Source of the DNA: Prostheceraeus crozeri
Taxonomy: Eukaryota; Platyhelminthes; Polycladida; Euryleptidae
Direction: 5' to 3'
Assembly: GCA_907163375.1 (NCBI GenBank)
Contig: CAJQUW010015625.1
Location: 414,943-478,942 of the forward strand
DNA: 64,000 nucleotides
Shown here piece by piece: positions 2,722 to 43,235 of this stretch (position 1 is the first letter of the stretch; each line of letters starts with the position of its first letter). Made by a program: the position numbers and the translations under genes. The notes under the pieces were generated by a model. The model was not told the origin of the DNA and did no database searches. It saw only the letters and a program-made list of their open reading frames with translations.

Positions 2722-2780
2722 GTAGGTTGTAACAATACACTGAGACTTGAACAGAGATGATAGAATGATTTCTCTTTCAG
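2722..2780 (+). other. Intron 2 of the polymerase gene, 59 nt
   Basis: Donor GTAGGT at 2722 and acceptor TTTCTCTTTCAG ending at 2780. Exon 2 (2661-2721, 61 nt) gives the phase needed to enter the zinc-finger frame. Without splicing, exon 2 runs into TAA shortly after the donor. The alternative donor GTTGTA at 2726 gives the wrong phase. Confidence 0.55.
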
Positions 2781-5700
2781 GTGATGTGAGTTCCAGCTCA
2801 GGACTCTCGCGACAAGGCAACGAGTGGGAATGTGCCGACTGCGGACATATGTTTACAAGGAAGCACAGTCTCCTTCGACACATCAAACAACGTGTGTGTC
2901 AACGCAAAGCGGCGTCAATCTCCGGAGGTGAAGTTGATTCTGACGATGACATCTCCTTTCCTTGCGATTTGTGCCCTCTTTCTTTTGATAGTCACTTTCA
3001 GCGATCTTCGCACAGACTTCAACACACGCATGCAAATGATCACTACACCAACGGTACCTCTACCATCTCCCTCATTAATGTTTCACATAATAATTTAGTA
3101 CGCGACTACTGCATGGAGTCCAATACTCAAATAGTAGATTTTCCTGACTGGCTCCTTCAAAATTCAAACATTATCGAAGCGCTCTTCAACAATTTAGACA
3201 ATTTTAGAATGAAGGCGCTCATCTACCTTAAACTAAAATATATTAAAATAGATTTTCAAACGGGTCAAGTGACGGAGAGAATACAGTTTCATGTTCCTTC
3301 CTCTTCCGCAACCGAAGTTGTAGACTGCGAGTCTTGGCTAAATTTTCACATTCAATGTTTAAAATCAAATGTAGATAAATTCAATCAACGCGACAGCGCT
3401 CTCATTTTTGATGGTGTGGACTCAGCCATATTCAAAATTTCCCTATTAGAAAGTCATGCAGCTCGAGGCACATTTAAACTACCAAAAACGTTGTATAATA
3501 AGAAAGCTGTCATCAATGTCGATTGTAAATAGCAGTGTTTCAAATACGCAGTCCTATCCATCCTTCACTATAATGATATCAACGCGCATCGAGATCGCAC
3601 CTATAGCTATAGACAGTGGGAGGATGAACTAGACTTTGAAGGTTGTGATAGTAACAACATGAAAATCAAAGATGTAGAAACGTTCGAAAAACATAATAAG
3701 ATTAAAATTGTCGTTCACGTGTGGGAGAAGGGGTTGAAGGGTGCCCGCTATAATTCACGTTCAACTTGTTATGAACGTGTAGTCAACCTCTTATTAGTAA
3801 AACAAGATGATAGCGAGGAATGGCACTACTGTGGTATTCCCAAAATCTCTCGCTTGTACACACACTTGGGGCACTCTAAAAGAGGTGAACATTTTGTATG
3901 CGACCCCTGCATCCGCTCCTTTTGGAGTAAAGATAAATTTGAAACTCACTATGAATGGTGCAAGCGAGGTAAATTACAAATGGAACGCATGCCCAAAGAT
4001 AAAATATTTTCACATAGGGATAATGGTGACGAATTAAGTCCCCTGCGTGTCATTTACGCAGACATAGAATGCTACATTGATGATATCATCCACAAGCCAG
4101 CAGCCATATCCCGCTATGAAGTATGGCATGACCACTTTAGAAATAGGCAAAACAAAATGCATGCTTGGCAAGGTGAAGATTGTATTTCAAAATTTCTAGA
4201 ATTTCTCGATAAAGCTGCTAAATTTCAACAATCATATGATTCCCAATTGCAGCGTAAGTCACTACATATGTCAGATGAAGACAAACAAAAATTTGAAAGT
4301 TGCACATCCTGTCCTAAATGTCATAAAACGTTTGATGACGATAAAATTAAGAAAGTGCGTGATCATGATCACATCACTGGTAAATTTAGAAACGCACTCT
4401 GCTCCAAATGTAACTTTTCACTTAGGTTGAGACGTCGTGTACTACCCGTCATTTTTCATGACTTTAAGGGCTATGACAGTCATATGCTCATAAAAGGAAG
4501 GTTGAGCCAGATGAAATCGTGGCCGTTTAATGTAATAGCGCAAATGAGAGAAAAATTCATGGCAATGACAGCAAAAGTACCGGTAGATAAAACTAAAGAA
4601 AATAAGACAGTCTTCTTCGAAATAAAATTTTTAGATTCATTCCAATTCATGTCAGCGTCACTAGCTTCTCTCGTTCGTAATCTCAAGTTTCTTCCCCATA
4701 GTCAAACTTTGAAGAAACACTATCCAAACTTAACGGATGAAATAATCACTCGCAAAGGAGTCTTTCCTTATGCGTATTTTAGCTCAATGTCTAAACTAAA
4801 TGAAACAACCCTTCCTTCCATTGACAAATTCCAAAACGATTTGACGGGTGAAGATTGTCCAGTAGAGGACTATGAACATGCTCAAGAGGCATGGTTAAAA
4901 TTTGATTGTAAAACGTTTGGCGATTATATGATCGCTTACTTAGAATTAGATGTCATTTTGCTGGCTGATGTCTTTCAGGAATTTCGACGAGTGGCATTAG
5001 AAGAAGACAAATTAGATCCTGTCCACTTTGTCAGTATACCAGCCATGTCCTTTAAATCAGCCTTTAAAATGACTGGTGAGACCATCCATCTCTTACAAGA
5101 CCCCAAGATGTATAATATATTTGAGCGCGGAATACGCGGTGGTCTCACATTTGTGAATAAACATCACATAAAATCTAAAACAGTAGGTAATGATCATATC
5201 CACCTAAAGTACTATGACCAAAATAATTTATATGGCAGTTCACTGTCTAAACCACTACATCACTCCGAGTTTAGTTGGTTAAATCAAGATGAGCTTGCGT
5301 ATTACTCCAACCCTTCAAACATTCTGAAGATTCCAGATGAATGTGATTGGGGATATTATTTTGAAGTGGATTTGATTTATCCAAATAGTATTAAAAATAA
5401 AACTGCTGATTTCCCACTCGCACCTGAATCTGGTGAAGTGACTGAAGATTTGTTTTCACCATTCATGTCACAATTTCATAATAACTTAACAGAGTGTGGA
5501 CAGCCAAGGTACAAACCATGCCGCAAACTTTTGCTCACCCAATATGATAAGACAAATTATCTCGTGCACTTCTGCATACTAAAATTCTATTTAGAAATGA
5601 GCATGCTTCTAAAGTCAGTTCACCGCATTATCAAATTTAGACAGAAAGCCTTCCTCAAACCCTACATGGATAGTAACAGTCAAAAACGTGCACTAGCCCA

Positions 5701-6565
5701 AAATAATTTTGAAAAAGATTTTTATAAATATAAGAATAACAGTCTTTTCGGAAAGACCATGGAGGATGTTAGAAAACGCATAAACTACAAACTAGTCACT
5801 GATGATCAAAAATATCACAAATTGACCTCATCACCTCTTTTCATTGATAGAGACATTATCGATGAGGATCTTGTAGGTGTTAAAATGATAAAATCTGAAG
5901 TTGAGTTGTGCAAACCCATCTATATTGGGCAAGCCGTTTTAGATTATTCCAAGCTTGAAATGTATCAACTCTTCTACAAAATATTAAAACCATGCCCTCT
6001 CGTAAAAGAGGTTCGCTTGCTGGGTGGTGATACAGATAGTTTCTTTTTAGGAATTACCACTCAAAAAGATTTAAATTTTAATGAAGTAGCTAAGTCATTA
6101 GAAAAATATTTCGATACATCTAACTACAATCCCACTCATCCACTCTATTCCATACAGAATAAAGCCAAACTTGGTTGTTTTAAGGATGAAACAGCAGGAA
6201 AGGAAATAGATGAGATGATTCTCCTCCGTCCTAAAATGTATTCCATGAAATGAAAAGAATGTGCAGATAGTATTAAGCGCGCTAAAGGTATATCAAAATC
6301 CATTGTTCACAAAATGAAACATCGGTCCTATAAGAAGGCCTATAAAAATAAAACTATAACGTTTGTCAATATGACAATCTTAAAATCTCAAGTTCATACT
6401 GTGAAAATGCACACGTTCAAGAAACGAGCGCATTCAGCATTGGAGGATAAGAGGTGTTGGATAGGACATAACACATCTCTTCCACATGGACATCCTGACA
6501 CAAACGTACCTCCACCCAAAAGAATAAAACTCACGCTACCACATTCAGGAGATGTATTGACATAA

Positions 6566-9742: not shown

Positions 9743-10099
9743 ATGAAGACTTGGATTTTGGACTCTCTGCAATATATCAGAGTTGATCGTGATGGAAACG
9801 TGCATTTCAAAAATTCTCATGGTCATGCATCAAGAGGTATTACATTAACATGGCGACAATTTGTCAACCTCAATGATATCATGAGGGATTTGGAATATTT
9901 TGAAACATTAAGATTCATCTCCTTGGGTGATCAAGTTTGGCTTCAACATCACAGAAATGAAATTCAAATTTGCCATTCTCATTCCGCAAACTGTTTCTCA
10001 TTCCGCAAATACAATTGGGAGAAGTATAGAAGATACATACATCGCTCCATCATGACATTTATTCGTCGTGAGTTCATCGCCCTACTATGCAAATCTTAA
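9743..10099 (+). CDS. Small protein A of a tandem paralogue pair (possible PC4-like fold)
   Basis: 118 aa from ATG 9743. It is paralogous to the next ORF: both share a WxLDSLQ-type start, a DRDGNVHFK/DHDRNVYFK strand, a basic ALS/TLT helix entry (RGITLTWRQFVNLNDIM) and a final WEKYRR...RSI block. The GI-x-LT-x-xQF-x-x-L pattern recalls the PC4/p15 transcriptional coactivator, and placement next to a TBP-like gene fits, but similarity is faint. It begins the only rightward block in this half of the element. Alternative: unknown DNA-binding protein. Confidence 0.55.
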   Translation: MKTWILDSLQYIRVDRDGNVHFKNSHGHASRGITLTWRQFVNLNDIMRDLEYFETLRFISLGDQVWLQHHRNEIQICHSHSANCFSFRKYNWEKYRRYIHRSIMTFIRREFIALLCKS

Positions 10100-10121: not shown

Positions 10122-10676
10122 ATGAGTTGGAAATTAGATTCCCTACAACGTATTGAAACGGATCATGATCGAAACGTCTATTTCAAAGATTCAACTGGAA
10201 ATGTGGGAAGAGAGTTTGCTTTATCTTATCGTCATTTTCAATCTCTACATCATATCATGAAGGATTTGAAATACTTCTATATGAAAAGACATTCACGTAT
10301 TGGAAATCGCATCTGGTTGCGCGTCAACAAACGGCGAATTCAACTCTATCATTCCCAACTCCATACTAACTTCACATTTCATCAAGGTAGTTGGGAAAAG
10401 TATAAAAGGAAGGTATATCGCTCAATTTACTCATTTTTTCATCATGAAGCGCCATCGCTACACCATCGTCAACATTCTCCGTCGCTTCAGACGCTACACC
10501 AAAATCGATCTCACAACATTACACCAACACCTTCCAAACAGCAAGTATTACCCGGGCCGTCCTCAAATGTTAGTGGTGAAGATGAACAATTCACGGAATC
10601 TTCAACTCTTCCCAAATGGGACTGTACAGATTCTCGGCGCCCTTTCTCATTCATCGGGCAGTCAATGCGCTTATAG
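10122..10676 (+). CDS. Small protein B of a tandem paralogue pair, with an overprinted tail
   Basis: 184 aa from ATG 10122, 22 nt after protein A. Residues 1 to about 108 align with protein A (KLDSLQRI, NVYFKDS, RIGNRIWLR, SWEKYKRK). The remaining 75 residues have no counterpart in A, are Ser/Pro/His-rich and overlap the TBP-like N-half ORF in another frame. The tail is thus probably frame left open by overprinting rather than an independent domain. Role unknown; PC4-like is a weak suggestion. Confidence 0.55.
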   Translation: MSWKLDSLQRIETDHDRNVYFKDSTGNVGREFALSYRHFQSLHHIMKDLKYFYMKRHSRIGNRIWLRVNKRRIQLYHSQLHTNFTFHQGSWEKYKRKVYRSIYSFFHHEAPSLHHRQHSPSLQTLHQNRSHNITPTPSKQQVLPGPSSNVSGEDEQFTESSTLPKWDCTDSRRPFSFIGQSMRL

Positions 10677-10722
10677 CTACAAAGACTACTACGTCGGATA
10701 TGGAAGAGGGAGAGGTGTGTGA
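10444..10722 (+). CDS. TBP-like protein, first repeat (N-half)
   Basis: 92 aa from ATG 10444 to TGA 10720-10722. The segment YTIVNILRRF..., KIDLTTLHQHLPNSKYYPGR, QMLVVK and NLQLFPNGTVQILG follows the order of the first repeat of TATA-binding protein (strand, helix, Y-x-P-x-R, then F-x-x-G-x-V-x-x-x-G). It would contribute half of the DNA-binding saddle. Its stop overlaps the next start as TGATG (10720-10724), so the second half could be made by reinitiation or by a -1 shift. Whether the split is functional or a lesion cannot be told. It overlaps the tail of small protein B. Confidence 0.65.
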   Translation: MKRHRYTIVNILRRFRRYTKIDLTTLHQHLPNSKYYPGRPQMLVVKMNNSRNLQLFPNGTVQILGALSHSSGSQCAYSYKDYYVGYGRGRGV

Positions 10723-10988
10723 TGTCGAATCTGACTGTGGACAATATGGTGATCTCTACTCAATTGAATGAAAGTGTATCATTTTTGAAGATTCGTACCA
10801 GCAGTTACAATTTGTGTTATGAACCCGAACTTTTTCCTGCAGCTCTCATTAGTTGTTGGTTACCTGTGCATGTGTCAATCTTTCATAATAGTAAAGTGAT
10901 CATTACTGGACTAAAATCTCATGTACAAGCAAATGTGATCCTAGACTATCTCATCGAGTATGTGCGTACCCAGCGGATTGTAAAATAA
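10722..10988 (+). CDS. TBP-like protein, second repeat (C-half)
   Basis: 88 aa from ATG 10722. It contains VDNMVIST, then YEPELFPAALISCW, then VSIFHNSKVIITGLKSH, which is the signature layout of the second repeat of TATA-binding protein (YEPELFP is nearly diagnostic, and the phenylalanine strand and TG-x-K turn follow at the right spacing). The distance to the first repeat across the ORF junction equals that expected in a continuous TBP. The stop TAA is embedded in an AATAAA signal. In the cell it would act at TATA promoters in the nucleus or viral factory. Homology is firm; whether it is active is unknown. Confidence 0.8.
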   Translation: MSNLTVDNMVISTQLNESVSFLKIRTSSYNLCYEPELFPAALISCWLPVHVSIFHNSKVIITGLKSHVQANVILDYLIEYVRTQRIVK

Positions 10989-11014: not shown

Positions 11015-11476
11015 TTATTTCAAATCATGATAGAACTTACAAATCATTTTTTCATTAGAGGATGGATTACATGAAAAGTTTTGAATAACAGATACAAATC
11101 GAGATACATGTAAACGTTTTAAGATGAAGTACAGTACAAAAGCACCACACGTTGATGAAAGTGGATGTTGTAGTATGCGTTCATTTCGCTGATATTGACG
11201 CGTATGTTTTCTCAACCACTGCTGTGTTGGTATATTTGGAGGTTGAGCAAGAGAGTCAAATAGTTCACCACGTCGGTCTTCTCCAATAAAGATCGCTTTC
11301 CAATGCTCACCGCCTAAATTCTGCGAATGAGTGTTTAGCACAATAAAGATGGGATAGTGATTTACTGCAGGTGGTAAGGTATCGAGCGAATAGACATTAT
11401 CGAAAGCTTTCAACGTCGCTTCGTCTGAATTACGCTGTACTTTAGTTTTAATATTGTCAGCAGTCAACCAACTCAT
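11015..11476 (-). CDS. Adenain-like maturation cysteine protease
   Basis: 153 aa. It cleaves capsid and core precursors during virion maturation in adenoviruses and is a core Polinton gene. Visible residues: H58 in GGEHWKAIFI, D74 in GELFDSLAQ, Q103 (oxyanion) and C110 in SSTCGAFV, the adenain order His-Asp-Gln-Cys. Length is at the short end for the family. Its ATG overlaps the capsid stop as TAATG (11474-11478), and it is the last gene of the pX-capsid-protease cluster. An AATAAA signal lies just downstream on this strand. No break is seen. Confidence 0.88.
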   Translation of the reverse strand: MSWLTADNIKTKVQRNSDEATLKAFDNVYSLDTLPPAVNHYPIFIVLNTHSQNLGGEHWKAIFIGEDRRGELFDSLAQPPNIPTQQWLRKHTRQYQRNERILQHPLSSTCGAFVLYFILKRLHVSRFVSVIQNFSCNPSSNEKMICKFYHDLK

Positions 11477-12753
11477 TAACGATTATACTGAAGAATCACG
11501 TCACGATACTTTGTAATTTCAATATTTGAATCGAAGACTGCATAAATTAATACATTGATCGTCTCAGGTAGTGTTCTTTTGAACGTCAAATCCAAACGAA
11601 TATTATGAGGCACGTTCGCTTGACGATAGGGTGCACTAATATCGCTGTCAGCAGTCAAATCAAATGCATAAATGGTATATCCACTCTTAAACTCTTTCAT
11701 AGTCAGTCCGTTGGTGTCATCCGTATTGTAAAAGCCAAAGACATCCATAAAATCAACATAACTGCGCATAAATTGATCCGAAGCAAAATCTGGTTTGTAG
11801 GGTGGACCAGGATGACTCACACCATTTACACGTAAAGCAATTTCACTTAACTGATTGTGTTTAAAATTGAAAGGATTCTTCTTTATATTACCATTAAATG
11901 CATCATTTTCAACCATTGCCACCATGAGGAGCTTCGGTGCTTCCGATGGAAAGAGGCCATCTTTCATGAAACTCTTTTGATCTTTCGGAATTGTAAAGGT
12001 GAGAAGCTTTGTATGCTGAATGGGGTAAATGGCATTTTGGCGGTTAAGACCTTCAGCATGCCCTCTAATGACACTTGGATTCGGTACTACTCGACGAATG
12101 TAAAGTGCAATATCTTCCACATGAATTCTAAGATTGTCAACTTTAGCAAATGCATTCAGCGCAAATTCAGGCTTATTCAATGTCAGCTTGAGTCGCATGC
12201 TGGTATTACAGAGTAAAAACTTTGACTGTCTAAAGAAGTCTAAATTCAGCGGACCATATAGCTGACATACTTTACTATCTTTAATCATAGCAGATCGCTT
12301 TACAAAGCCACTGTTTGTTTCAGCATCACATTTTCCTGCTTCATCTCTGTACCATCCCATGGCTTCCATATGACTTTTTTGTGCTGCTGGATGAAACTGT
12401 GATACATGATTGAAATATGATTTATAGGGATAATCACTTTCACCACCTTCCACCTGCTGCTCTCCAATCGTTAGAGAAACATCGCGAAGTAATGTAGTCA
12501 ATGGTAAATTGTTCAGTCCAACTTTATGTGTATCGTCAATAGCAGTTCCATCTGCTTGCTGAATTCTAAACCTCAAATCAACCATCGCATAACTCAAATC
12601 TATGTAGTCATCACTACCACCAGGAATAACAAATTCAATGGGGCCAGCATTCTCAGCTGTTCGAGGATGATAATCTACAATACTTGAACTAAGAATATCT
12701 GTCTGTATGGCTTGTTGATCAAACAAACAAAACCCGGAAGTTTTACACTCCAT
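11476..12753 (-). CDS. Major capsid protein (double jelly-roll, hexon-like)
   Basis: 425 aa from ATG 12753, the usual length of Polinton capsid proteins. It would form the pseudo-hexameric capsid shell. Recognisable features: the N-terminal region with FVIPGGSDDYIDLSYAMVDL (first jelly-roll strand pair), LLRDVSLTIGEQQVEGG, and the C-terminal KRTLPETINVLIYAVFDSNI. Its neighbours are as expected: the basic core protein 2 nt upstream and the protease overlapping its stop. The frame is intact although other genes of this element are broken, so capsid genes may be under longer selection or the decay is recent. Identity rests on motif order and synteny. Confidence 0.85.
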   Translation of the reverse strand: MECKTSGFCLFDQQAIQTDILSSSIVDYHPRTAENAGPIEFVIPGGSDDYIDLSYAMVDLRFRIQQADGTAIDDTHKVGLNNLPLTTLLRDVSLTIGEQQVEGGESDYPYKSYFNHVSQFHPAAQKSHMEAMGWYRDEAGKCDAETNSGFVKRSAMIKDSKVCQLYGPLNLDFFRQSKFLLCNTSMRLKLTLNKPEFALNAFAKVDNLRIHVEDIALYIRRVVPNPSVIRGHAEGLNRQNAIYPIQHTKLLTFTIPKDQKSFMKDGLFPSEAPKLLMVAMVENDAFNGNIKKNPFNFKHNQLSEIALRVNGVSHPGPPYKPDFASDQFMRSYVDFMDVFGFYNTDDTNGLTMKEFKSGYTIYAFDLTADSDISAPYRQANVPHNIRLDLTFKRTLPETINVLIYAVFDSNIEITKYRDVILQYNR

Positions 12754-13252: not shown

Positions 13253-14341
13253 TCACTGTTGATCACTTAGATGAAAGATATCGGCACGACGCATCCAAGA
13301 GTTCATACTTGAAGGATAACCAGTCCATTTAACAAGACACCATTCTTTACCTTGTCGTTTTTTACATCGAATGATTTTCTCTACCAAATATGTTTCACTT
13401 TCAGTGACTACCTCAATCTCATCGCGGTAAAAGCTACCCTCAATTTCTTCATTATCGTAATCTTTCAACTTGTAGGTGGTGGGAGAGTCTTTTTGATCAA
13501 TCCTTGATACTGTAAATACCTCCTCTGTCCAATTCGGAAGGTACCCTTTAGCAAAAACACTCTTCACTTTTGAGATACGAACTTTATCACCAATTTTCAC
13601 ATCACTTTTCACATGAGTGCGTTTACGTTGGAATGATTCGCGCACTTTATCTACATTGTCAGCATTTACATCTACTGGTCTGAGTCCAATAGAACGATGG
13701 ATAGAGTGATTGTAGGCATGGAGTGTATCTTGTAGAACCCTTGTCCAATTTTGTGTCAAGTTGGCAGTAAAATGTCGCCACAAGCGATTTTTTAATGTGC
13801 GATTAAAACGTTCAACGAGTGCAGCTTTATAGGCACTCTTTACACTAAACAACTCAATGTCATGCCTCTCAAATAATCTTCTCACATGCTGATTTTCAAA
13901 CTCTTTTCCTTGATCACTCTGAATTCATTTTGGAATGCGACCTTCTCGAAAAATTGTTTGGAATGCTTTTGCTACTCCTTTCCCTTCTTTAGCTTTTAAA
14001 GGTTGAGCCCACGCATAACGCGAGAAAATATCAATGACGGTTAAAATAAAATTATTGCCCGAGTTATGTTTTGAAATGGAGGCAACATCACACAAATCTG
14101 CTTGCCACTGTTCATCGATGTCATGAACAATATAATGGCGGGTGCGGTACTTCTTTTTCGCTTGTTTGTGGAGTGTATAGGTAGCCTGACCCTTTAACCA
14201 TCGTTTCACTTGTGATTCTGGAAGACCACTGGCTTTTCATAATTTCTTGATAGATGCAAATCCTGCCGGATGTTTTACATCATAATAGATTGACTTCAAA
14301 CGTTCAGTCGATGACGACTGACTCTTTTTCGTCCTTCTCAT
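13253..14341 (-). pseudogene. Polinton retroviral-type integrase with C-terminal chromodomain, broken by two nonsense codons
   Basis: Integrase inserts the element into the host genome. The gene runs leftward from about ATG 14341. The N-terminal zinc-binding part begins with YYDVKHPAGFASIKKL and is then cut by a stop at about 14,237-14,239. The rve core follows with the first Asp in QWQADLCDV, then a second stop at about 13,925 just before the second catalytic Asp. The Glu is in ALVERFNRTLK. The C-terminus has YLVEKIIRCKK...WCLVKWTGYPS...SW, a clear chromodomain that probably targets chromatin. The three open pieces are all in the same frame, so simple nonsense mutations explain the breaks. 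Confidence 0.88.
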
Positions 14342-14517: not shown

Positions 14518-15210
14518 TTAATAGTCTGAGAACATGTATTTCTTGGGAGGAGGTGTTTTGCGTTTTCCTTTTACTAGTTTTAGTGGTGGCGTAGATCTAC
14601 GACGAGTTCTTCCTCTTGTTTGCTTATTGAGTGTGGGAGGGGATGTAGCAGGTGACGTCTTAAACCAATTTGTTGGCATTTTCATCGTCTGAAGCATTGG
14701 AGCAGTAGCCACTGTTGAATCAAGTTCTTTCAATGTCTCATTATTCAAAGCAAATTTTGGCACATTATGCTTTTTCAATAGTTTAAGAAAGTATGACCAA
14801 CCAGGTGGAACATAGCCCTGACGGCACTTTCTACGTGTCGCATGCGGAATCAAGTCTTCATAACGTGAAGCATCAATCACTTTATTTTCATCTGTAATGA
14901 TTTCTCCTCTATCATTTACATTGAGATGGGGTTCAATACTGTTGAAAAGAGATATGGCATGTGCGCGAGATGCTAAAGGTGTAGCAGTCGATACCGAGTC
15001 ACGCATCTTATTCTTCAAGCTTTTCAATTGCTCAACAGTTTCCGATTGTAATAATACAGCACGATGTGGATCTTTGATGTGAACATTTTGCTGATAATCT
15101 ATTTCTTTCCTATACATTTGATTTGCAAGAGGTTGCTTTACTTGCTGCATGACAGTCAATTGTACATATTCATCCTGAGGAATAACAATCATGCGAGAAT
15201 AAGAACTCAT
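14518..15210 (-). CDS. Conserved Polinton protein of unknown function, 230 aa
   Basis: The ATG overlaps the ATPase stop as ATGA (15,207-15,210). The product has IVIPQDEYVQL near the N-terminus, a coiled-coil-prone middle, and YEDLIPHATRRKC...PPGWSYFLKLLKKHNVPK, a block often seen in Polinton/adintovirus proteins beside the ATPase. The C-terminus is Pro/Arg/Lys-rich (RGRTRRRS; KGKRKTPPPKK), which suggests nucleic-acid or nuclear association. I cannot name its activity. Position and overlap point to late, virion-linked expression. Confidence 0.65.
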   Translation of the reverse strand: MSSYSRMIVIPQDEYVQLTVMQQVKQPLANQMYRKEIDYQQNVHIKDPHRAVLLQSETVEQLKSLKNKMRDSVSTATPLASRAHAISLFNSIEPHLNVNDRGEIITDENKVIDASRYEDLIPHATRRKCRQGYVPPGWSYFLKLLKKHNVPKFALNNETLKELDSTVATAPMLQTMKMPTNWFKTSPATSPPTLNKQTRGRTRRRSTPPLKLVKGKRKTPPPKKYMFSDY

Positions 15211-15824
15211 AGTTTGTAGATAATCATGGGAGTTTTCAAAATATCACTTTGAAATCTAAATTCTTCCGGACACTCTTGCGTAAAGTCAATGAATAAGTAA
15301 CCGTGTGGTTTTTCAGTAGCTGCTTGAAAAATTTCAATTAAGGCTTTTGATCCTCTGGGTGCAACTTGTCGCGCTAAAATTTCAAATTGACTTTTATCTC
15401 GCGGATTCTTGAAAACAGCATAATAGTGTGTATTCAGGTTTCGTGTACGAGCTTCTTTTCCATCAGGAAACAAATTTTGTGTGATATAGATGATAAAGCA
15501 CCTTTTATGATGTGCTGCGCGAGTGAACATATCTGTAACATCTTTTGAATTTTTACTTTCTTTTAATAAATCATCCAATACAACAACATCATTAGACTGA
15601 AGTTTATCCACTGCAATAATTCCTTCATGTCGAATAAAGTTGCGACTTTGCAATTCCTGAAACAGCGACGGTTGATAAATACCATAACACAAAATCACTC
15701 GATTGATAGGTTCCTTAAACAACTCTCTTCTTTTATCCAATAAATTCAGCGTGAAAACAGTTTTACCTGCATGAGATGGACCTGATACAGTCAGAACTTT
15801 ATCACATTGAAGTCTGAAATCCAT
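15207..15824 (-). CDS. Genome-packaging ATPase (FtsK/HerA superfamily, A32-like)
   Basis: Drives DNA into the capsid by ATP hydrolysis. Walker A is GPSHAGKT close to the N-terminus and Walker B is VVVLDDLL about 60 residues later. A downstream FIIYITQNLF strand carries the polar sensor expected in this family. I start at ATG 15824 because the family typically begins a few residues before Walker A; the frame stays open further upstream to about 15,872 without another ATG. About 205 aa, normal for Polintons. No lesion is seen. Confidence 0.88.
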   Translation of the reverse strand: MDFRLQCDKVLTVSGPSHAGKTVFTLNLLDKRRELFKEPINRVILCYGIYQPSLFQELQSRNFIRHEGIIAVDKLQSNDVVVLDDLLKESKNSKDVTDMFTRAAHHKRCFIIYITQNLFPDGKEARTRNLNTHYYAVFKNPRDKSQFEILARQVAPRGSKALIEIFQAATEKPHGYLFIDFTQECPEEFRFQSDILKTPMIIYKL

Positions 15825-15855
15825 TATAATACTTTGAGATTCAACATTTGCATAA

Positions 15856-16206
15856 TTAACGTCTAGAGCCACAGATATTACCCAATACGTTGCCCACGAT
15901 AGGAGCTAGCATCGGTAGTAACGCTGGAAGGAAACCGCCCTTTTGTGTTAGAGTTTCCCTCTTTCTTTGAAGGGTGACTTTAGGATTGGAGATGCAACGC
16001 AATTTCGTAGCATATCGCTTAAGTAACTTTCGTTGTTTTGGTGCTAATTTCTTCGTCCTCAACTTTCCGACATGAGAAATAATTTCACGAATGAATTTAT
16101 CGTTAGCATGTCGTATAGCATTGTATCGCTGATTTGCTTTCATTCGTCGGAGAGTTTGAATGGCTGAAGAAAACTTTGAAGACTTTTGACTTTTACGTTT
16201 CGCCAT
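15856..16206 (-). CDS. Basic protein with hydrophobic C-terminus (Polinton core/membrane-active protein)
   Basis: 116 aa, ATG 16206. About 90 residues of Lys/Arg-rich helix (RMKANQRYNAIRHANDKFIR) are followed by GGFLPALLPMLAPIVGNVLG, a Gly-rich hydrophobic segment after a QKGG site. This resembles the arrangement in many Polinton proteins next to the ATPase, where a protease could release a membrane-active peptide at the Gly-Gly site. Function is inferred; identity of the gene group is fairly secure from its position and shape. Confidence 0.65.
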   Translation of the reverse strand: MAKRKSQKSSKFSSAIQTLRRMKANQRYNAIRHANDKFIREIISHVGKLRTKKLAPKQRKLLKRYATKLRCISNPKVTLQRKRETLTQKGGFLPALLPMLAPIVGNVLGNICGSRR

Positions 16207-28310: not shown

Positions 28311-28381
28311 TTCTGTGAATGAGGGGGGGGAGGTCAGTGAAATTTGATGAAAAATGTTTTGGTAAAGGTCCCAGGTCGAAA
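28266..28381. repeat. Short inverted repeat at the inner edge of the left TIR
   Basis: Arms of about 45 bp (AATTTCGACCTGGGACC through CATCAAATTT and its reverse complement) flank a loop of about 25 nt containing a G8 tract. The same hairpin-forming segment lies at the second fold-back centre near 47,240. Confidence 0.85.
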
Positions 28382-28619
28382 TTCGGAAGTTTTAAATTTT
28401 TCAAAATTTTCACCACACTGGAGCTCTCACACTTAGGAATTTTTTCACTTGTGGCATGTTACATGTATATGTGCTGACGGACCAACTTCCCGTGGTCATA
28501 TGAGAATGGTTCAGGTGTCATATTGTAAAGAATGATGAGACGAATCGTCTGCAACAAACCGCATGTCGCTACGATGAATACTTTCGGAGATAGAGCCATT
28601 TTAAGTTTTCTTCCGAGCA

Positions 28620-28627
28620 TATATAAA
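28620..28627 (+). promoter_or_regulatory. TATA box of the coiled-coil gene
   Basis: TATATAAA, followed after about 30 nt by a likely start region and then a GAG|GTAAGT donor at 28,669. Confidence 0.6.
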
Positions 28628-28668
28628 CCCCCGACAACGTAAGTCTGATCACTTCATCGAAAGACGAG

Positions 28669-29202
28669 GTAAGTGACGGTCGTCGCTCTGAGCTCCGGAT
28701 ATCGGGTGTTTCAAAGGACTCTATCTTTTGAAGTAGGCAAGCTATCTTCTTACTTCAAAGTTTGTATGATAGAGTTTGATAGTGTCTTTACTACTGATGA
28801 AATTTTTTAAAAGTAGTATGAGTAGTAAAATGCGGAGTTTTTTTTAAAATTCTTAATTTTCACTTTTTTCAAAGTTTTAACATATAGACTAAGGTTTTCA
28901 AGTATCCTGAGTTCAAATATGCTATCAGATTTGAAATTTAACTAAGTCTAAGGCAGCTTTGAGGGGTTAGATCCCAGCTACTGATCACTACCTTTGACTC
29001 GGCGTTCCTGTTACCACTTCGGGGCAGTGACAATGATGTCTTCAGCTGTAAAGAGCGGGTATCGGGGAAGATCTCTCACTTCCCTAGTGATCAGTACAAG
29101 GCCTTCGGGCTGTCGACGGGATCGAGTGCCACTCACTACACTCTTTAGGAATATGACTGTACTACATGATTCCAAACTTATACAAATTTCATTATCTTAC
29201 AG
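28669..29202 (+). other. 5'-UTR intron of the coiled-coil gene, 534 nt
   Basis: Donor GAG|GTAAGT and acceptor TTCATTATCTTACAG ending at 29,202, 17 nt before ATG 29,220. The span between TATA and ATG has no long ORF. The alternative donor GTAAGT at 28,639 is possible. Confidence 0.55.
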
Positions 29203-29219
29203 CTAACGATAAATCAGGC

Positions 29220-30398
29220 ATGGCTAATGACAAGAATAGAAAATACCATATCAAAATGTGTGTGTGCGGTCGTATAAATCGCAGTGCGGACGCCAAGGCT
29301 CACGTCAAGAAGGCGGGCACCGGCCACATGATTATCTTGAATAGGGTTGCGTGCGTGAAGTGTAGAGTGCTGAAGGGTGATGAGGATGAGGCGCGTTTCT
29401 ACAGAGTGCATGCTGACTGTAGTGGTGGTTTAGTGACTGATTTGAGATTTACGCAGTTGATTGTGGAAGAGAGGGAGCGAATGTTGGCGATCGAGCGAGA
29501 GGGTAAGGTTGAGAATGTTGTTGAGAATGTTGTTGAGAATGATGAGTTGGCGAGAGCGGTTGCGTCGTTGGAGCGTGAGATTGAGCGAAAGAGAGTGCTT
29601 GAGAGTGATGATGAGGATGATGTGGATTTAGATAGGCAGCGTGTGAGGAAGCGTGTGAGGAAGTTGAGCTCTTCGTCATCGGAGGTGTCAAACATTGTCA
29701 TCACCGACCCCCCGAAGAGCTCATCTTCCCCAAAAGTGAAGAGTGGTGGGATTCGTGTGCAGTCGGCGAGGTGGTTGAAGGATGAAGAGAAGAGGCATGT
29801 TTCGCAGCAGATGGCGCATGATTTGTTGGTAAATAAGTATGAGAGTTTGAAGAAAGTGAAGGATGAAGTTGTGAAGGAGTTGGATGAGTTAAAAAAGAAG
29901 GAACTGAAGTCGAAGGAGGTGGCGGATGAAAACATTAGAATGAGGCGTTGTGTGACTGATTTGAAGAATAAGACGCGAGAGTTGGAAGAGAAGAATGATG
30001 AGTGTGAGAAGAGGGCGAGTGCTGCGGAGAGAAGAATGAGAGATGCAGAGGCGAATTTTGAGGAGATGATGAAGGAGATTAGTGTGTTGAGAGCGAGGAA
30101 TGTTGAGTTGGAGAGGACTGTGGCTCGGCGGGGTGATGAGAGGCAGGCGTATGAGAAGTTGGAGCGCATGAGAGATGAGTGGGAACGTGTGAATGAGGAT
30201 CGTTTGTTTGAGTTTCACATCCCTATTCGGGATAATCATTTGGCCGGCGAAGTATTGGTAAATCAAAGCCTCGACGAAAGTATAGTATGTTACAATGGTC
30301 ATCCGAGCAAGAAGTGTCTGCATGCCAGCCTGAGAATGCGCGGTCACCTACATAAATTCTCGATTCGGAAACGCGCGAGACTGCCAAAGGATGACTAA
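29220..30398 (+). CDS. Coiled-coil protein with Cys-containing N-terminus, 392 aa
   Basis: I use ATG 29,220 (MANDKNRKYHIK) because the upstream in-frame codons lie in the likely intron. The N-terminal 60 residues have CVCGRINRSADAKAHVKKAG and CVKC, which could form a zinc site. An acidic and Ser-rich linker follows (VVEN repeats; SSSSSEVSN), then a coiled coil over about 150 residues (KYESLKKVKDEVVKELDEL onward), and a conserved C-terminal region (FEFHIPIRDNHL; MRGHLHKFS) ending basic. No known family. As the first gene inside the left TIR with its own TATA box it is probably early. A short intron follows the stop (30,403-30,463). Confidence 0.7.
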   Translation: MANDKNRKYHIKMCVCGRINRSADAKAHVKKAGTGHMIILNRVACVKCRVLKGDEDEARFYRVHADCSGGLVTDLRFTQLIVEERERMLAIEREGKVENVVENVVENDELARAVASLEREIERKRVLESDDEDDVDLDRQRVRKRVRKLSSSSSEVSNIVITDPPKSSSSPKVKSGGIRVQSARWLKDEEKRHVSQQMAHDLLVNKYESLKKVKDEVVKELDELKKKELKSKEVADENIRMRRCVTDLKNKTRELEEKNDECEKRASAAERRMRDAEANFEEMMKEISVLRARNVELERTVARRGDERQAYEKLERMRDEWERVNEDRLFEFHIPIRDNHLAGEVLVNQSLDESIVCYNGHPSKKCLHASLRMRGHLHKFSIRKRARLPKDD

Positions 30399-30402
30399 CT
30401 TG

Positions 30403-30463
30403 GTGAGTGAAAAAGTAAATAAGATAGTATATCCTATTCTAATACATATCATTTTCATTGCAG
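30403..30463 (+). other. 3'-UTR intron, 61 nt
   Basis: GTGAGT donor 4 nt after the stop; acceptor TTCATTGCAG. Matches 290-349 in element 1. Confidence 0.5.
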
Positions 30464-30496
30464 ATCTTTGCCCGCCTTCACCACCCCATCACGTCA

Positions 30497-30639
30497 CTCC
30501 CGAGAACGAACCATCGGCTCTCTTAAGGGCCACCTAGGGGCAAGACATGATAGAACCTCCACGCGGTTTGCCCTGGGCAGTCTTTAGACTGGCGAATACT
30601 ATCATTAAGTTGAATCTGCTATCAGTCAACTTGAACGTT
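30497..30639. repeat. CR143 repeat, element 2 copy 1
   Basis: Carries the same CACCTAGGGG change as copy 1 of element 1 and precedes the 88-aa cassette. Confidence 0.85.
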
Positions 30640-30656
30640 GCGTCGCGTTAGAGGGG

Positions 30657-30664
30657 TATATAAA
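30657..30664 (+). promoter_or_regulatory. TATA box of the 88-aa cassette gene
   Basis: TATATAAA about 32 nt before the ATG at 30,696, with a TCATTTCATTTCATTTC stretch between. Confidence 0.6.
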
Positions 30665-30695
30665 CCACTGCCTCTCATTTCATTTCATTTCAATC

Positions 30696-30962
30696 ATGCA
30701 GACGCCGAACAGTCAAGTCAGCTCTCCTCGCGGACCACAGTTAAGGCCGCGAAATTTATTTGAGGAGTTTGTCAGGCTAGAGGAGCAAGACAGAGTTTTT
30801 AATAATCTTGCTCGGATTGGCAATCCGATGACAGCAACTGCTGTCAATCCAACGGAATGGCGCTACATTCCAATTTTTAGTCATGTGCCAGTTAGTGTGG
30901 AAGTCGACAGTGCTACCAAAGAGAGAGTCAAAGACTCTCTCAGCAGAATTGGTAGGGTGTAA
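30696..30962 (+). CDS. 88-aa protein of a cassette found only in this arm
   Basis: Starts MQTPNSQVSSPRG; mixed charged middle (FEEFVRLEEQDRVFNNLARI) and a C-terminal VKDSLSRIGRV. It has its own TATA box and lies between two CR143 repeats. The inverted copy of the element lacks this gene together with one repeat (476 bp). I do not recognise a family; no second copy in the window allows a test for selection. Confidence 0.5.
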   Translation: MQTPNSQVSSPRGPQLRPRNLFEEFVRLEEQDRVFNNLARIGNPMTATAVNPTEWRYIPIFSHVPVSVEVDSATKERVKDSLSRIGRV

Positions 30963-30972
30963 GATGACGTTA

Positions 30973-31115
30973 CTCCCGAGAACGAACCATCGGCTCTCTT
31001 AAGGGCCACCATGGGGCAAGACATGATAGAACCTCCTCGCGGTTTGCCCTGGGCAGTCTTCGGACTGGCGAATACTATCATTAAGTTGAATCTGCTATCA
31101 GTCAACTTGAACATT
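30973..31115. repeat. CR143 repeat, element 2 copy 2
   Basis: Separates the 88-aa and 84-aa cassettes; ends AACATT rather than AACGTT and is followed by the GCAGTCGATTGC stretch. Confidence 0.85.
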
Positions 31116-31190
31116 ATGCAGTCGATTGCTATCCCTGAAGCATTCTGATTCGCTGTTGAGCAATTCATTGTTGAAAACCCTATATAAGCT

Positions 31191-31198
31191 AGAAGATT
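31191..31198 (+). promoter_or_regulatory. TATA box of the 84-aa gene
   Basis: TATATAAG, same position and downstream TTCTCATTC as at 593-600. Confidence 0.65.
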
Positions 31199-31228
31199 GT
31201 AGCGCTTCTCATTCAATTTGAAGTCACG

Positions 31229-31483
31229 ATGGAAGCGACATCTGCCGACAACATTCCCGTCTTCACTGATGAAGACAACGGCATTCCCGAGTTCGTCATC
31301 CTCGACGAGTGGGATGAGGAGGATGAGAAGAAGGGGAAGATCAAGAGGATCGTTTGGGCGGATGGAGTGTGGACTCCAAATACCACTCGCATCCGAAAGG
31401 TGCCAGATGCACCACCACGGCTTAGGCGGTATAGGGTATACGACAACCTAAGCGTCATACCCATTGACTATTCCAGTCAATAG
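31229..31483 (+). CDS. Small acidic protein, 84 aa (homologue of 640-909)
   Basis: Same product as the 89-aa gene of element 1 without the internal duplication: acidic start (FTDEDNGIPEFVILDEWDEE), basic RLRRYRVYD end. Ends at the CR143 repeat that forms the 126-aa gene's 3' end. Confidence 0.65.
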   Translation: MEATSADNIPVFTDEDNGIPEFVILDEWDEEDEKKGKIKRIVWADGVWTPNTTRIRKVPDAPPRLRRYRVYDNLSVIPIDYSSQ

Positions 31484-31489
31484 TCAAAT

Positions 31490-31864
31490 TCACGTCCCCG
31501 AGAACGAACCATCGGCTCTCTTAAGGGCCACCATGGGGCAAGACATGATAGAACCTCCTCGCGGTTTGCCCTGGGCAGTCTTCGGACTGGCGAATACTAT
31601 CATTAAGTTGAATCTGCTATCAGTCAACTTGAACGTTGCAAATGAAGTTCGGTGTAATACTTCCTTTCGACGGGCGTTCCTGTAAAGGGCGGCGGTGAAA
31701 CCCGTAGCTATGTATACCGCAAGGGACATTCGGCAATGGTCAATCTTGTTAAACCTCTCTGCGTCATGTTTGCAAGTGATTGCCTCTGTCTCAACGTAGT
31801 ATGCATTCGCGCCAGGGCGACATTTAGCCAACTGTCGAAGGTTGCCTAAAACTTTCCATTGCAT
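31490..31864 (-). CDS. Conserved 124-aa protein (homologue of 910-1290)
   Basis: ATG 31,864. Differs from the element 1 copy at few residues (for example RPGANAYY for RPGENAYY). The C-terminal third is CR143 (31,496-31,637). Convergent with the 84-aa gene. Confidence 0.6.
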   Translation of the reverse strand: MQWKVLGNLRQLAKCRPGANAYYVETEAITCKHDAERFNKIDHCRMSLAVYIATGFTAALYRNARRKEVLHRTSFATFKLTDSRFNLMIVFASPKTAQGKPRGGSIMSCPMVALKRADGSFSGT

Positions 31865-31976
31865 ACGTTATGAGAACCATGAGTTCTACCTGTCTCTATC
31901 AATGAGACGAATTGATGAATGGAATGAAATGGGAGGACACTCACGCGCCACACGCAACATAACACACTTCTCTCTT

Positions 31977-32590
31977 CCGTAGTCTAACAAGCTCTTTACA
32001 CATGGATCGCAGTCGATTGCTATCCCTGTATCAGAAGTGTAAGCTATCTTAATTTATTTGACACTATTTTATCTACCATCATCGTCCATATGAAATGTTT
32101 TTAGATTTACAAGTTAGACTAAGCGTGCTACTATTTCCAAATGAAAAAGTATACATGGTTAAATCATCCACTTAAGCCCATCCGTAGTCTAACAAGCTCT
32201 TTACACATGGATCGCAGTCGATTGCTATCCCTGTATCAGAAGTGTAAGCTATCTTAATTTATTTGACACTATTTTATCTACCATCATCGTCCATATGAAA
32301 TGTTTTTAGATTTACAAGTTAGACTAAGCGTGCTACTATTTCCAAATGAAAAAGTATACATGGTTAAATCATCCACTTAAGCCCATCCGTAGTCTAACAA
32401 GCTCTTTACACATGGATCGCAGTCGATTGCTATCCCTGTATCAGAAGTGTAAGCTATCTTAATTTATTTGACACTATTTTATCTACCATTATCACCCATA
32501 TGAAATGTTATAAGATTTACAAGTTAAACTAAGCGTGCTACTATTTCCAAATGAAAAAGTATACATGGTTAAATTATTCACTAAAACCCC
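31977..32590. repeat. Tandem repeat of about 204 bp, three units
   Basis: CCGTAGTCTAACAAGC at about 31,977, 32,181 and 32,385. The last unit differs by a few bases (TTATCACCC). Confidence 0.9.
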
Positions 32591-32639
32591 ATTCAAGTAA
32601 GTCAGTATGAAAGCAAAGATAATACGAAATAAACATTTA

Positions 32640-33077
32640 TTATGGCATGTATTTCAAAAGGTCTTCATCGTCAATATCGTCCCAGAGTCTGGCTTCACAT
32701 AGATCACAAAAACAGTTGAGCTGCTTTAAACGTTCTTCTGCAGCGTCCCTCACTTTCTCAATGTACGCCCACTCCGCCACGGTTCGCGGTTGGGAGTTAG
32801 GGGTGTACCACTCCCATATTTGATGCAAGTGCGACTTGCTGGTCATCTCCATCACCCCTTCGGCATCATATTGTAAATATTTCCACCGTATGCCTGTTAG
32901 GTCGGGCAACTCCTCTTCATCCTCCTCCGATAATGATAACTTTCGTATATTGTCCAGTCGGTACACCTTCTCCACCTTCGCCTTTCTTGGTGCATTTGGT
33001 GTAACGAGCACCTTTGCTGATGTACATGGAGAGGAGAACTCCAATGCGTTATTTGGTGCTGTTGGAGGACTTGTCAT
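32640..33077 (-). CDS. Conserved acidic 145-aa protein (homologue of 1863-2312)
   Basis: ATG 33,077. Keeps RWKYLQYD, WEWYTPNSQPR and CFCDLCEA. The linker lost the VCEKE segment present in element 1. The stop merges with the polyadenylation signal. Confidence 0.7.
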   Translation of the reverse strand: MTSPPTAPNNALEFSSPCTSAKVLVTPNAPRKAKVEKVYRLDNIRKLSLSEEDEEELPDLTGIRWKYLQYDAEGVMEMTSKSHLHQIWEWYTPNSQPRTVAEWAYIEKVRDAAEERLKQLNCFCDLCEARLWDDIDDEDLLKYMP

Positions 33078-33190
33078 GTTGTCTTTGAAATGCTGACTTT
33101 GAATAATGATAACTTTAACATTTTTCTAATTCTTAAGTATACACAAGCAGCCAATCAGAATGAACATCCAATGAATGAAGAGAATGAAAG

Positions 33191-33198
33191 TATATAAG
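33191..33198 (+). promoter_or_regulatory. TATA box of the element 2 polymerase
   Basis: TATATAAG about 170 nt before ATG 33,371 in the divergent promoter region. Confidence 0.6.
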
Positions 33199-33370
33199 CA
33201 AAGTGACATTCGTGTCATTTCACTCTGTCTTTGAGACGCATAAGTGAACGGTTGTCTAGCGAATTCTGTTATTATTTGAGGCGTACAAGTGAATTCCAAA
33301 TTTGAGACGTATTATTTGAGTGAAGTCTCTATCTTGTTGAAGTATCAAGCTTAAACATAATTTCGTTGAA

Positions 33371-36300
33371 ATGGTAAGTTGAAAATTTCTTCACTCATCT
33401 CCCTCAAACGTGTGGCTAATAGCATCTTCCTCAATTTCAGGCATCAACTTCATCACCAACACCCTCCCTTCTCGAGGAAAGTTTAGAGTTGTTGAGTCAA
33501 AGTAGGTTGTAATAATACACTGAGACTTGAACAGAGATGATAGAATGATTTCTCTTTCAGGTGATGTGAGTTCCAGCTCAGGACTCTCGCGACAAGGCAA
33601 CGAGTGGGAATGTGCCGACTGCGGACATATGTTTACAAGGAAGCACAGTCTCCTTCGACACATCAAACAACGTGTGTGTCAACCCAAAGCGGCGTCAATC
33701 TCCGGAGGTGAAGTTGATTCTGACGATGACATCTCCTTTCCTTGCGATTTGTGCCCTCTTTCTTTTGATAGTCACTTTCAGCGATCTTCGCACAGACTTC
33801 AACACACGCATGCAAATGATCACTACACCAACGGTACCTCTACCATCTCCCTCATTAATGTTTCCCATAATAATTTAGTACGCGACTACTGCATGGAGTC
33901 CAATACTCAAATAGTAGATTTTCCTGAGTGGCTCCTTCAAAATTCAAACATTATCGAAGCGCTCTTCAACAATTTAGACAATTTTAGAATGAAGGCGCTC
34001 ATCTACCTTAAACTAAAATATATTAAAATAGATTTTCAAACGGGTCAAGTGACGGAGAGAATACAGTTTCATGTTCCTTCCTCTTCCGCAACCGAAGTTG
34101 TAGACTGCGAGTCTTGGCTAAATTTTCACATTCAATGTTTAAAATCAAATGTAGATAAATTCAATCAACGCGACAGCACTCTCATTTTTGATGGTGTGGA
34201 CTCAGCCATATTCAAAATTTCCCTATTAGAAAGTCATGCAGCTCGAGGCACATTTAAACTACCAAAAACGTTGTATAATAAGAAAGCTGTCATCAATGTT
34301 GATTGTAAATCACAGTGTTTCAAATATGCAGTCCTATCCATCCTTCACTATAATGATATCAACGCGCATCGAGATCGCACCTATAGCTATAGACAGTGGG
34401 AGGATGAACTAGACTTTGAAGGTTGTGATAGTAACAACATGAAAATCAAAGATGTAGAAACGTTCGAAAAACATAATAAGATTGAAATTGTCGTTCACGT
34501 GTGGGAGAAGGGGTTGAAGGGTGCCCGCTATAATTCACGTTCAACTTGTTATGAACGTGTAGTCAACCTCTTATTAGTAAAACAAGATGATAGCGAGGAA
34601 TGGCACTACTGTGGTATTCCCAAAATCTCTCGCTTGTACACTCACTTGGGGCACTCTAAAAGAGGTGAACATTTTGTATGCGACCGCTGCATCCGCTCCT
34701 TTTGGAGTAAAGATAAATTTGAAACTCACTATGAATGGTGCAAGCGAGGTAAATTACAAATGGAACGCATGCCCAAAGATAAAATATTTTCACATAGGGA
34801 TAATGGTGACGAATTAAGTCCCCTGCGTGTCATTTACGCAGACATAGAATGCTACATTGATGATATCATCCACAAGCCAGCAGCCATATCCTGCTATGAA
34901 GTATGGCATGACCACTTTAGGAATAGACAAAACAAAATGCATACTTGGCAAGGTGAAGATTGCATTTCAAAATTTCTAGAATTTCTCGATAAAGCTGCTA
35001 AATTTCAACAATCATATGATTCCCAATTGCAGCGTAAGTCACTACATATGTCAGATGAAGACAAACAAAAATTTGAAAGTTGCACATCCTGTCCTAAATG
35101 TCATAAAACGTTTGATGACGATAAAATTAAGAAAGTGCGTGATCATGATCACATCACTGGTAAATTTAGAAACGCACTCTGCTCCAAATGTAACTTTTCA
35201 CTTAGGTTGAGACGTCGTGTACTACCCGTCATTTTTCATAACTTTAAGGGCTATGACAGTCATATGCTCATAAAAGGAGGGTTGAGCCAGATGAAATCGT
35301 GGCAGTTTAATGTAATAGCACAAACGAGAGAAAAATTCATGGCAATGACAGCAAAAGTACCAGTAGATAAAACTAAAGAAAATAAGACAGTCTTCTTCGA
35401 AATAAAATTTTTAGATTCATTTCAATTCATGTCAGCGTCACTAGCTTCTCTCGTTCGTAATCTCAAGTTTCTTCCCCATAGTCAAACTTTGAAGAAACAC
35501 TATCCAAACTTAACGGATGAAATATTCACTCGCAAAGGAGTCTTTCCTTATGCGTATTTTAGCTCAATGTCTAAACTAAATGAAACAACCCTTCCTTCCA
35601 TTGACAAATTCAAAAACGATTTGACGGGTGAAGATTGTCCAGTAGAGGACTATGAACATGCTCAAGAGGCATGGTTAAAATTTGATTGTAAAACGTTTGG
35701 CGATTATATGATCGCTTACTTAGAATTAGATGTCATTTTGCTGGCTGATGTCTTTCAGGAGTTTCGACGAGTGGCATTAGAAGAAGACAAATTAGATCCT
35801 GTCCACTTTGTCAGTCTACCAGCCATGTCCTTTAAATCAGCCTTTAAAATGACTGGTGAGACCATTCATCTCTTACAAGACCCGGAGATGTATAATATAT
35901 TTGAGCGCGGAATACGCGGTGGTCTCACATTTGTAAATAAACATCATATAAAATCTGAAACAGTAGGTGATGATCATATCCACCTAAAGTACTATGACCA
36001 AAATAATTTATATGGTAGTTCACTGTCTAAACCACTACCTCATTCCGAGTTTAGTTGGTTAAATCAAGATGAGCTTGAGTATTACTCCAACCCTTCAAAC
36101 ATACTGAAGATTCCAGATGAAGGTGATTGGGGATATTATTTTGAAGTGGATTTGATTTATCCAAATAGTATTAAAAATAAAACTGCTGATTTCCCACTTG
36201 CACCTGAATCTGGCGAAGTGACTGAAGATATGTTTTCACCATTCATGTCACAATTTCATAATAACTTAACAGAGTGTGGACAGCCAAGGTACAAACCATG

Positions 36301-37345: not shown

Positions 37346-37523
37346 TCAACTTTAACTCAGTATTTTGATGTTGCTTTTTGTAGATATACATGGTTGTTTT
37401 ATGTATCGCATGAGATCGTTTCCTCCTTGTGAATATATGCCTACAGTCAGCCCATTCCCCTATATCTGTGAAAAGACTTTTTCATATACATATTTTTATT
37501 TCAATAAACATATCACAATGACT

Positions 37524-37896
37524 TCACTTTGTTTTCCGAAACACTAAAGTTACGAGGGATTTAGTATCTTTCACGTGGATGCACTCTTGTAAACCATTGG
37601 TAATTTTGATAGCAATAGAGGGTATAGTTTGTTTGATGACGGGATGATAGAAAATAGATTCAAACATCTTCTCGACTATTCCATATGAAGCGTCTTTATC
37701 ATGAATGAAATCACGTAAAATGTATTCTTTTTTCTCGCCAACAGAAATAGGTAAAATCAAATCACTTTGAATGTAAAGGTGCTGTTCATGTTTATCAAGT
37801 GTCATTGGTGTTTCTATACCAATCGTATGCGCAGCAGCAAACACTGTTTGTAGCATTGAAAAGCCAAAGAGTTTTTTCAAATTTTTACTCAATTGA
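37524..37896 (-). pseudogene. 3' fragment of the capsid-accessory gene, cut by the fold-back
   Basis: Matches the C-terminal region of 6745-7606 (SVGEKKEYILRDFIHDK; LVTLVFRK). Upstream of 37,896 the sequence turns into its own reverse complement, so the 170-aa frame reported across the centre is a chimaera. Confidence 0.85.
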
Positions 37897-37938
37897 AAAT
37901 CAACGCGTTGTTCTGAAACTGGGTGATGACATTCAATG
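37897..37938. other. Fold-back centre 1 (42-nt spacer of a giant inverted repeat)
   Basis: Arms end at AATTGA (37,891-37,896) and start at TCAATT (37,939). The spacer is the reverse complement of the 42 nt that follow the same point in element 1 (7117-7158). A 6-nt match, TCAATT, exists at both switch points. Confidence 0.9.
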
Positions 37939-38311: not shown

Positions 38312-38489
38312 AGTCATTGTGATATGTTTATTGAAATAAAAATATGTATATGAAAAAGTCTTTTCACAGATATAGGGGAATGGGCTGACTGTAGGCATAT
38401 ATTCACAAGGAGGAAACGATCTCATGCGATACATAAAACAACCATGTATATCTACAAAAAGCAACATCAAAATACTGAGTTAAAGTTGA

Positions 38490-43195: not shown

Positions 43196-43235
43196 TAAAT
43201 GTTTATTTCGTATTATCTTTGCTTTCATACTGACT

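Follow-up and report, generated by a model that had tools for sequence, protein, structure and literature searches.

Does a Polinton in a flatworm genome carry its own TATA-binding protein (TBP), and is this protein made as one chain or as two? The question is raised by a stretch of 64,000 nucleotides from Prostheceraeus crozeri (assembly GCA_907163375.1, contig CAJQUW010015625.1, positions 414,943 to 478,942 of the forward strand), hereafter the window, in which all coordinates are given. The window contains an element with a gene set resembling that of a Polinton. Following two paralogous open reading frames (ORFs) of this element, U1 and U2, there is a TBP gene in two pieces, ORF 1 (10,444-10,722, plus strand, frame 1) and ORF 2 (10,722-10,988, plus strand, frame 0). 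The original prediction regarded them as the first and second TBP repeats, naturally encoded by two ORFs joined at UGAUG. Our analysis makes it likely that the Polinton lineage encodes a complete single-chain TBP of two repeats, about 175-185 amino acids in length and with an inferred role at promoters, and that the copy in the window is broken.

TBP homology and the junction between the repeats

Profile searches with both ORFs gave scores above the gathering score of the Pfam TBP family PF00352 (22.9 bits), namely 35.9 bits (E-value 6.7e-9) for ORF 1 and 35.4 bits (E-value 9.3e-9) for ORF 2. TBPs were also the top matches of both ORFs in a sequence search of PDB, the best values being 0.0028 for ORF 1 and 1.5e-13, with the Methanocaldococcus jannaschii TBP, for ORF 2. 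In PHROGs, ORF 1 had a single match at 0.15 and ORF 2 had none, and an Rfam search yielded nothing at gathering scores. Judged by sequence, the TBP homology of both ORFs is beyond chance, and their assignment to the first and second repeats was borne out. The stop of ORF 1 also overlaps the start of ORF 2 as TGATG, as had been described (Table 1).

Database relatives were collected in two protein searches. The search with ORF 2, limited to proteins of up to about 154 amino acids, found 35 proteins with 53-92% identity, 34 of them with the Pfam TBP label; their lengths were 77 to 95 amino acids in 32 cases and 58, 63, and 139 amino acids in the remaining three. The longest of these, P0007, contains part of repeat 1 fused to repeat 2 in one frame and lacks the N-terminus. 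A search with P0007 among proteins of up to 243 amino acids returned 26 proteins, comprising 22 second halves and 4 continuous forms: P0007 itself, P0036 (202 amino acids), P0037 (184 amino acids), and P0038 (177 amino acids). All four matched PF00352 above its curated score. Two tandem repeats in one chain, frame-broken in the window, are seen in relatives. Only P0036 and P0038 look complete, while P0037 changes at the C-terminus. A two-residue gap, present in P0038 and absent from P0036, P0037, and P0007, divides the continuous forms into two sequence groups. Altogether, 40 different relatives were obtained: 4 continuous forms, 35 proteins limited to the second half, and P0033, which, read by eye, starts out in a different frame before passing into that of TBP. 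The search for continuous or split versions proposed in the original prediction, carried out among these database proteins, thus gave a mixed answer. Unbroken sister ORFs, which it had named as the mark of a simple lesion, do occur in related elements.

The four continuous proteins were compared with the window by tblastn. Each of them produced two strong pieces, one ending at 10,656 in frame 1 and the other spanning 10,659-10,985 in frame 0. Over the repeat 1 region the identity was 77% for P0037 (71 amino acids) and 70% for P0036 (92 amino acids, beginning upstream of the ATG). The homology therefore switches frame at 10,656-10,659, 63 bases upstream of UGAUG, and none of the four proteins aligned to the final 66 bases of ORF 1 (10,657-10,722). 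The junction in the continuous P0037 reads ALSHSSAQSMRLELQKLLRRIWKREKCVMSN; at the same place the window encodes ALSHSS in frame 1 and QSMRL*LQRLLRRIWKRERCVMSN in frame 0, where the asterisk is a stop codon. In the connecting helix the window and P0037 are the same at 18 of 21 positions. As this comparison indicates, the helix is still written in the window DNA, one frame over and past one TAG. The place of TGATG is occupied within the continuous proteins by a Val-Met or Leu-Met pair (CVMSN in P0037 and CLMSN in P0007, at the protein level), and UGAUG can arise from any such pair encoded as NTG-ATG. The two ORFs of the window are probably remnants of a protein that was once continuous, and UGAUG the chance end of a wrong frame. 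Since some related copies encode TBP unbroken, the two-piece appearance is probably damage in the window copy; because of the frame change and the in-frame TAG, the whole TBP cannot be made from this copy. A second TBP copy was not found in the window, where the four continuous proteins had strong tblastn matches only at 10.4-11.0 kb and all others had E-values of 0.13 or more.

Two mechanisms were considered that would make the split functional. Most elements might make two TBP chains via reinitiation at the stop/start overlap, the continuous forms being derived. This would agree with the predominance of second halves, 27 of the 35 starting at either of two adjacent Met positions, but we regard it as quite unlikely. 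The other eight halves begin further in, some of them inside the repeat, no first-half-only protein was present among the 26 matches of the P0007 search, and continuous forms occur in both sequence groups. In the window, moreover, the homology switch precedes UGAUG and the helix is readable past the stop, while the overlap with U2 described below would account for the short gene calls. For the window copy, a reinitiation split at UGAUG was rejected on the position of the switch and the continuous relatives; a saddle of two chains is likewise unsupported, given four relatives with one unbroken frame. Programmed -1 frameshifting, which would join the ORFs into one protein, has the right relation of frames (repeat 1 in frame 1, repeat 2 in frame 0), but the frame entered contains TAG (10,674-10,676) 15 bases further on, and a single shift would not rescue the protein. 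In addition, no slippery heptamer was recognised by eye at the switch, and the four relatives need no shift. Frameshifting is therefore very improbable; in the window copy it is contradicted by the TAG, unless the stop is read through, and was rejected.

Other searches extended the set of relatives little. ORF 1 alone found no candidate in the protein search, which is odd given a stretch of 14 residues common with P0007, and this result was not used as evidence. No relatives were found in viral contigs searched with ORF 2, an alignment of ORF 2 relatives (A1), the capsid candidate, and the ATPase of the element, or in genome contigs searched with A1. Phages and plasmids searched with P0036 contained only distant TBPs, belonging to one virus and 12 plasmid records of haloarchaea.

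The overlapping frame upstream of the TBP gene

The predicted model of U2 has a two-repeat strand-helix arrangement and is weakly similar to Pur-alpha and Whirly proteins. The tail of U2 runs across 71 codons of TBP repeat 1. This frame stayed open in 8 of 20,000 synonymous resamplings with the codon usage of the element, in 214 of 20,000 with uniform codons, and in 456 of 20,000 permutations of its own codons. Stretches of 71 codons from 14 other ORFs were open in that frame in 0 of 3,534 cases and in the +1 frame in 65 of 3,534, although these stretches overlap one another and the PolB pieces of two element copies are near duplicates. An open U2 frame across TBP repeat 1 is thus rarer than expected, with moderate support. 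For a second piece, picked after it had been seen to be open, the corresponding value was 3.4%. Past the switch, frame 2 has no stop as far as 10,771 and encodes an acidic stretch, MEEGEVCDVESDCGQYGDLYSIE; P0033 begins with a near-identical one. Between 10,446 and 10,771, overlapping genes are suggested, as neither the U2 frame across TBP repeat 1 nor its counterpart past the switch contains a stop.

Common gene callers permit little overlap between genes. A caller that keeps U2 would start TBP at the first Met near the U2 end, which is the place where 27 of the 35 second halves do start, and second-half-only proteins would enter the databases. The short TBP calls would then result from the passage of the upstream ORF, in a different frame, across the first TBP repeat, and we consider such start-site calling the likelier, main cause of the half-length database proteins.

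Fold, promoter motifs, and possible function

The predicted model of P0036 has the saddle fold of TBP. The alignment used for modelling (A2) was imperfect, since MAFFT put ORF 1 of the window on repeat 2 rather than repeat 1, and P0036 was modelled with three A2 rows that covered parts of repeat 1 correctly. At the positions that we take to be those of the four DNA-wedging Phe and the two central Asn of TBP, both Asn and three Phe are kept, and one Phe is replaced by Pro. Seven residues are invariant in the 27 rows of A1 (N8, V10, F38, F54, T62, G63, and K65 in ORF 2 numbering), the pattern expected from DNA-binding constraint; nine of the 35 ORF 2 matches were excluded from A1, and P0038 was found later. 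The motif TATAWA was present within 120 bases upstream of 4 of the 18 element starts, compared with 7.1% of random stretches (binomial 0.034), at -43 (TBP), -12, about -105, and -116 relative to the ORF starts. It is somewhat enriched near the element starts.

The Polinton TBP is probably a promoter-recognition factor. In working elements, the single-chain protein would bind element promoters, and its conserved C-terminal stirrup would recruit host TFIIB and the RNA polymerase II (Pol II) machinery. The C-terminal stirrup is the TFIIB side of TBP. Element genes could then be read without host TBP or in competition with it; the role proposed is that of the TBP-like domain of herpesvirus ORF24 at late promoters. 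A further possibility, which we put forward tentatively and consider rather doubtful, is that U1 and U2, as two Pur/PC4-like nucleic-acid-binding proteins, form a small transcription-initiation cassette with TBP, the U2 tail lying over repeat 1. If so, the element would rely on host RNA polymerase II but determine for itself which promoters are used.

Several observations weigh against a single-chain promoter factor. In the window and in P0036, P0037, and P0038, the fourth Phe, that of the N-terminal stirrup, is replaced by Pro, which may affect TATA binding; in P0038 the Lys of TGxK is absent as well. TATAWA was missing within 120 bases of 14 of the 18 element starts, and no common 8-mer stood out over 17 starts (the PolB start being dropped), stronger 8-mers than the best one (p 0.0013) being obtained in at least 10 of 20 random sets. 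As many as 36 of the 40 database relatives are not continuous, and the frame change in the window could stem from an error in the assembly or the reads.

Some of these points would also fit a TBP relative that has left promoter recognition and serves, for example, as a TFIIB decoy or an architectural DNA binder: each of the four first halves that extend over the site has Pro in place of the wedge Phe, and most element starts have no TATAWA. The residues invariant across A1 argue against such a role, and we consider it unlikely. The probability that the resemblance arose by chance, or that the protein is not a TBP, is practically negligible; identity to cellular TBPs is as low as 19-28%, but this explanation is contradicted by the Pfam, PDB, and model comparisons. 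A single-chain TBP acting at element promoters remains the reading we prefer.

The surrounding element and related systems

The genes around TBP look like those of a Polinton/Maverick, in that candidate genes for a chromodomain integrase, a protease, and an ATPase occur together with one of PolB type, although several of the matches are weak (Table 1). The putative integrase matched Pfam Chromo above the cut-off (1.1e-7), whereas the core matches, rve_3 (0.0034) and rve (0.0022), were below it. In the PolB-type gene only zf-C2H2 (1.1e-5) and Endonuclease_7 (2.6e-6) were above the cut-off; its polymerase motifs are putative, and the C-terminal PolB piece of the second element copy had no Pfam match. 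The product of the ORF at 11,476-12,753, which we take to be the major capsid protein, had no match in Pfam or PDB at an E-value of 1, and no useful PDB match was obtained for the ATPase. An RNA polymerase was not noticed in the element, in which no gene-by-gene search aimed at one was made.

Table 1. Features of the TBP locus and the surrounding element in the window
Feature	Coordinates	Strand	Remarks
PolB-type gene, several ORFs, with N-terminal zinc finger and endonuclease VII-like part	2747..6565	+	Pieces searched apart
U1, paralogue of U2	9743..10099	+	43% identity to U2
U2, 184 amino acids	10122..10676	+	First ~108 amino acids paralogous to U1; Ser/Pro/Gln-rich tail through TBP repeat 1, -1 frame
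TATAAAAG	10401..10408	+	43 bases before TBP ATG, inside upstream ORF
TBP repeat 1 (to ...GALSHSS)	10444..10656	+	Frame 1; Pfam TBP match of ORF 1 and tblastn
ORF 1 tail, GSQCAYSYKDYYVGYGRGRGV, out of family frame	10657..10722	+	66 bases, TGA end
Connecting helix between repeats, QSMRL*LQRLLRRIWKRERCV	10659..10721	+	Frame 0; in-frame TAG 10674-10676
TGATG, ORF 1 stop / ORF 2 ATG	10720..10724	+	Taken as incidental
TBP repeat 2 (NxV, YEPELFP stirrup, TGxK)	10722..10988	+	Frame 0; Pfam TBP, PDB, database relatives
Probable Ulp1/adenovirus-type cysteine protease	11015..11476	-	Pfam Peptidase_C48 0.001, Peptidase_C5 0.044, below gathering
Putative major capsid protein	11476..12753	-	Suggested by position and resemblance
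Putative integrase, two or more ORFs (chromodomain in 13253-13885; 13925-14209)	13253..14209	-	Broken
Probable packaging-type ATPase	15207..15872	-	Pfam AAA_14 0.0027, Pox_A32 0.031, below gathering

Other Polinton copies in the window (about 30-46 kb and 48-64 kb) show PolB-side sequence. The region 28,324-47,240 contains a long palindrome with arms at 31,976-37,903 and 37,932-43,859, which are 100% complementary and separated by 28 bases; a second palindrome centre lies near 47,237. The palindrome looks like a long-read hairpin, an assembly artefact, or a head-to-head duplication. In the further copy at 52,000-62,000, the ORFs are heavily fragmented and a low-complexity stretch is present near 55 kb, possibly reflecting uncorrected reads. 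An ORF of 410 amino acids at 29,166-30,398, coiled-coil-like by eye and without a Pfam family above the cut-off, is repeated beside other element copies at 45,166-46,398 and partly at 7-285 and 48,170-48,874. Tandem repeats of about 205 bases occur on the outer side of element copies (1,403-1,919, 31,976-32,696, 43,285-44,199, 50,430-51,355, and 63,036-63,540).

The Polinton protein shares with cellular TBPs, the closest solved ones being those of M. jannaschii (2z8u) and yeast (7o4i), the two repeats and saddle fold, both Asn, three of the four Phe positions, the YEPELFP stirrup, and a connecting helix without a long insert. It differs from them in its low identity, in the replacement of the N-terminal stirrup Phe by Pro (GRPQ/GRPH), and in being encoded by a Polinton. 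Its nearest working analogue may be herpesvirus ORF24. According to the available text on ORF24 of Kaposi's sarcoma-associated herpesvirus, residues 419-594 are predicted to be TBP-like and bind late promoters with TATT specificity, and the protein extends to about residue 752 and has a Pol II-binding N-terminal domain (PMC13345323). In both cases a nuclear DNA virus or element would supply a TBP-like domain for its own promoters, late ones in the herpesvirus, and rely on host Pol II; unlike ORF24, however, the Polinton protein consists of the TBP core alone, and genes for partner proteins were not identified. A virus-encoded TBP fold is also known in giant viruses, mirusviruses, and the poxvirus early transcription factor, but these viruses are large and some have their own RNA polymerase. 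The TBP and TFIIB encoded by the giant virus CpV-BQ1 have been suggested to divert the RNA polymerase of the host (PMC12085832), TBP occurs in 59% of the mirusvirus genomes studied (PMC10132985), and Megavirus has its own RNA polymerase (PMC11464507).

In the literature searched, which comprised titles and the starts of abstracts and covered few subscription papers, no description of a Polinton TBP was found, in agreement with the original prediction, which knew of no TBP described as a Polinton gene. The relevant passages of PMC12085832, PMC11464507, and PMC4602308, as far as these texts were available, concern large viruses, and those of PMC10132985 mirusviruses; the available text of PMC11071308 and PMC10328495 has no passage on TATA or TBP, and in that of PMC12220804 the matches are in the reference list. 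A two-repeat TBP in a Polinton was not found to have been reported previously. Under one hypothesis, giant viruses and yeast virus-like elements came from a polintovirus that had gained transcription genes; a 2018 paper states that transcription machinery genes of the type found in these two groups were unreported in characterised polintoviruses (PMC6211774).

The locus also provides a caution: where two halves of a known protein meet in a stop/start overlap, the cause can be plain decay. Polintons are seen as standing near the root of many eukaryotic DNA viruses. A TBP encoded by the element bears on the lack of reported transcription genes in polintoviruses, and it raises the question of a common origin with the TBPs of giant viruses, mirusviruses, poxviruses, and herpesviruses.
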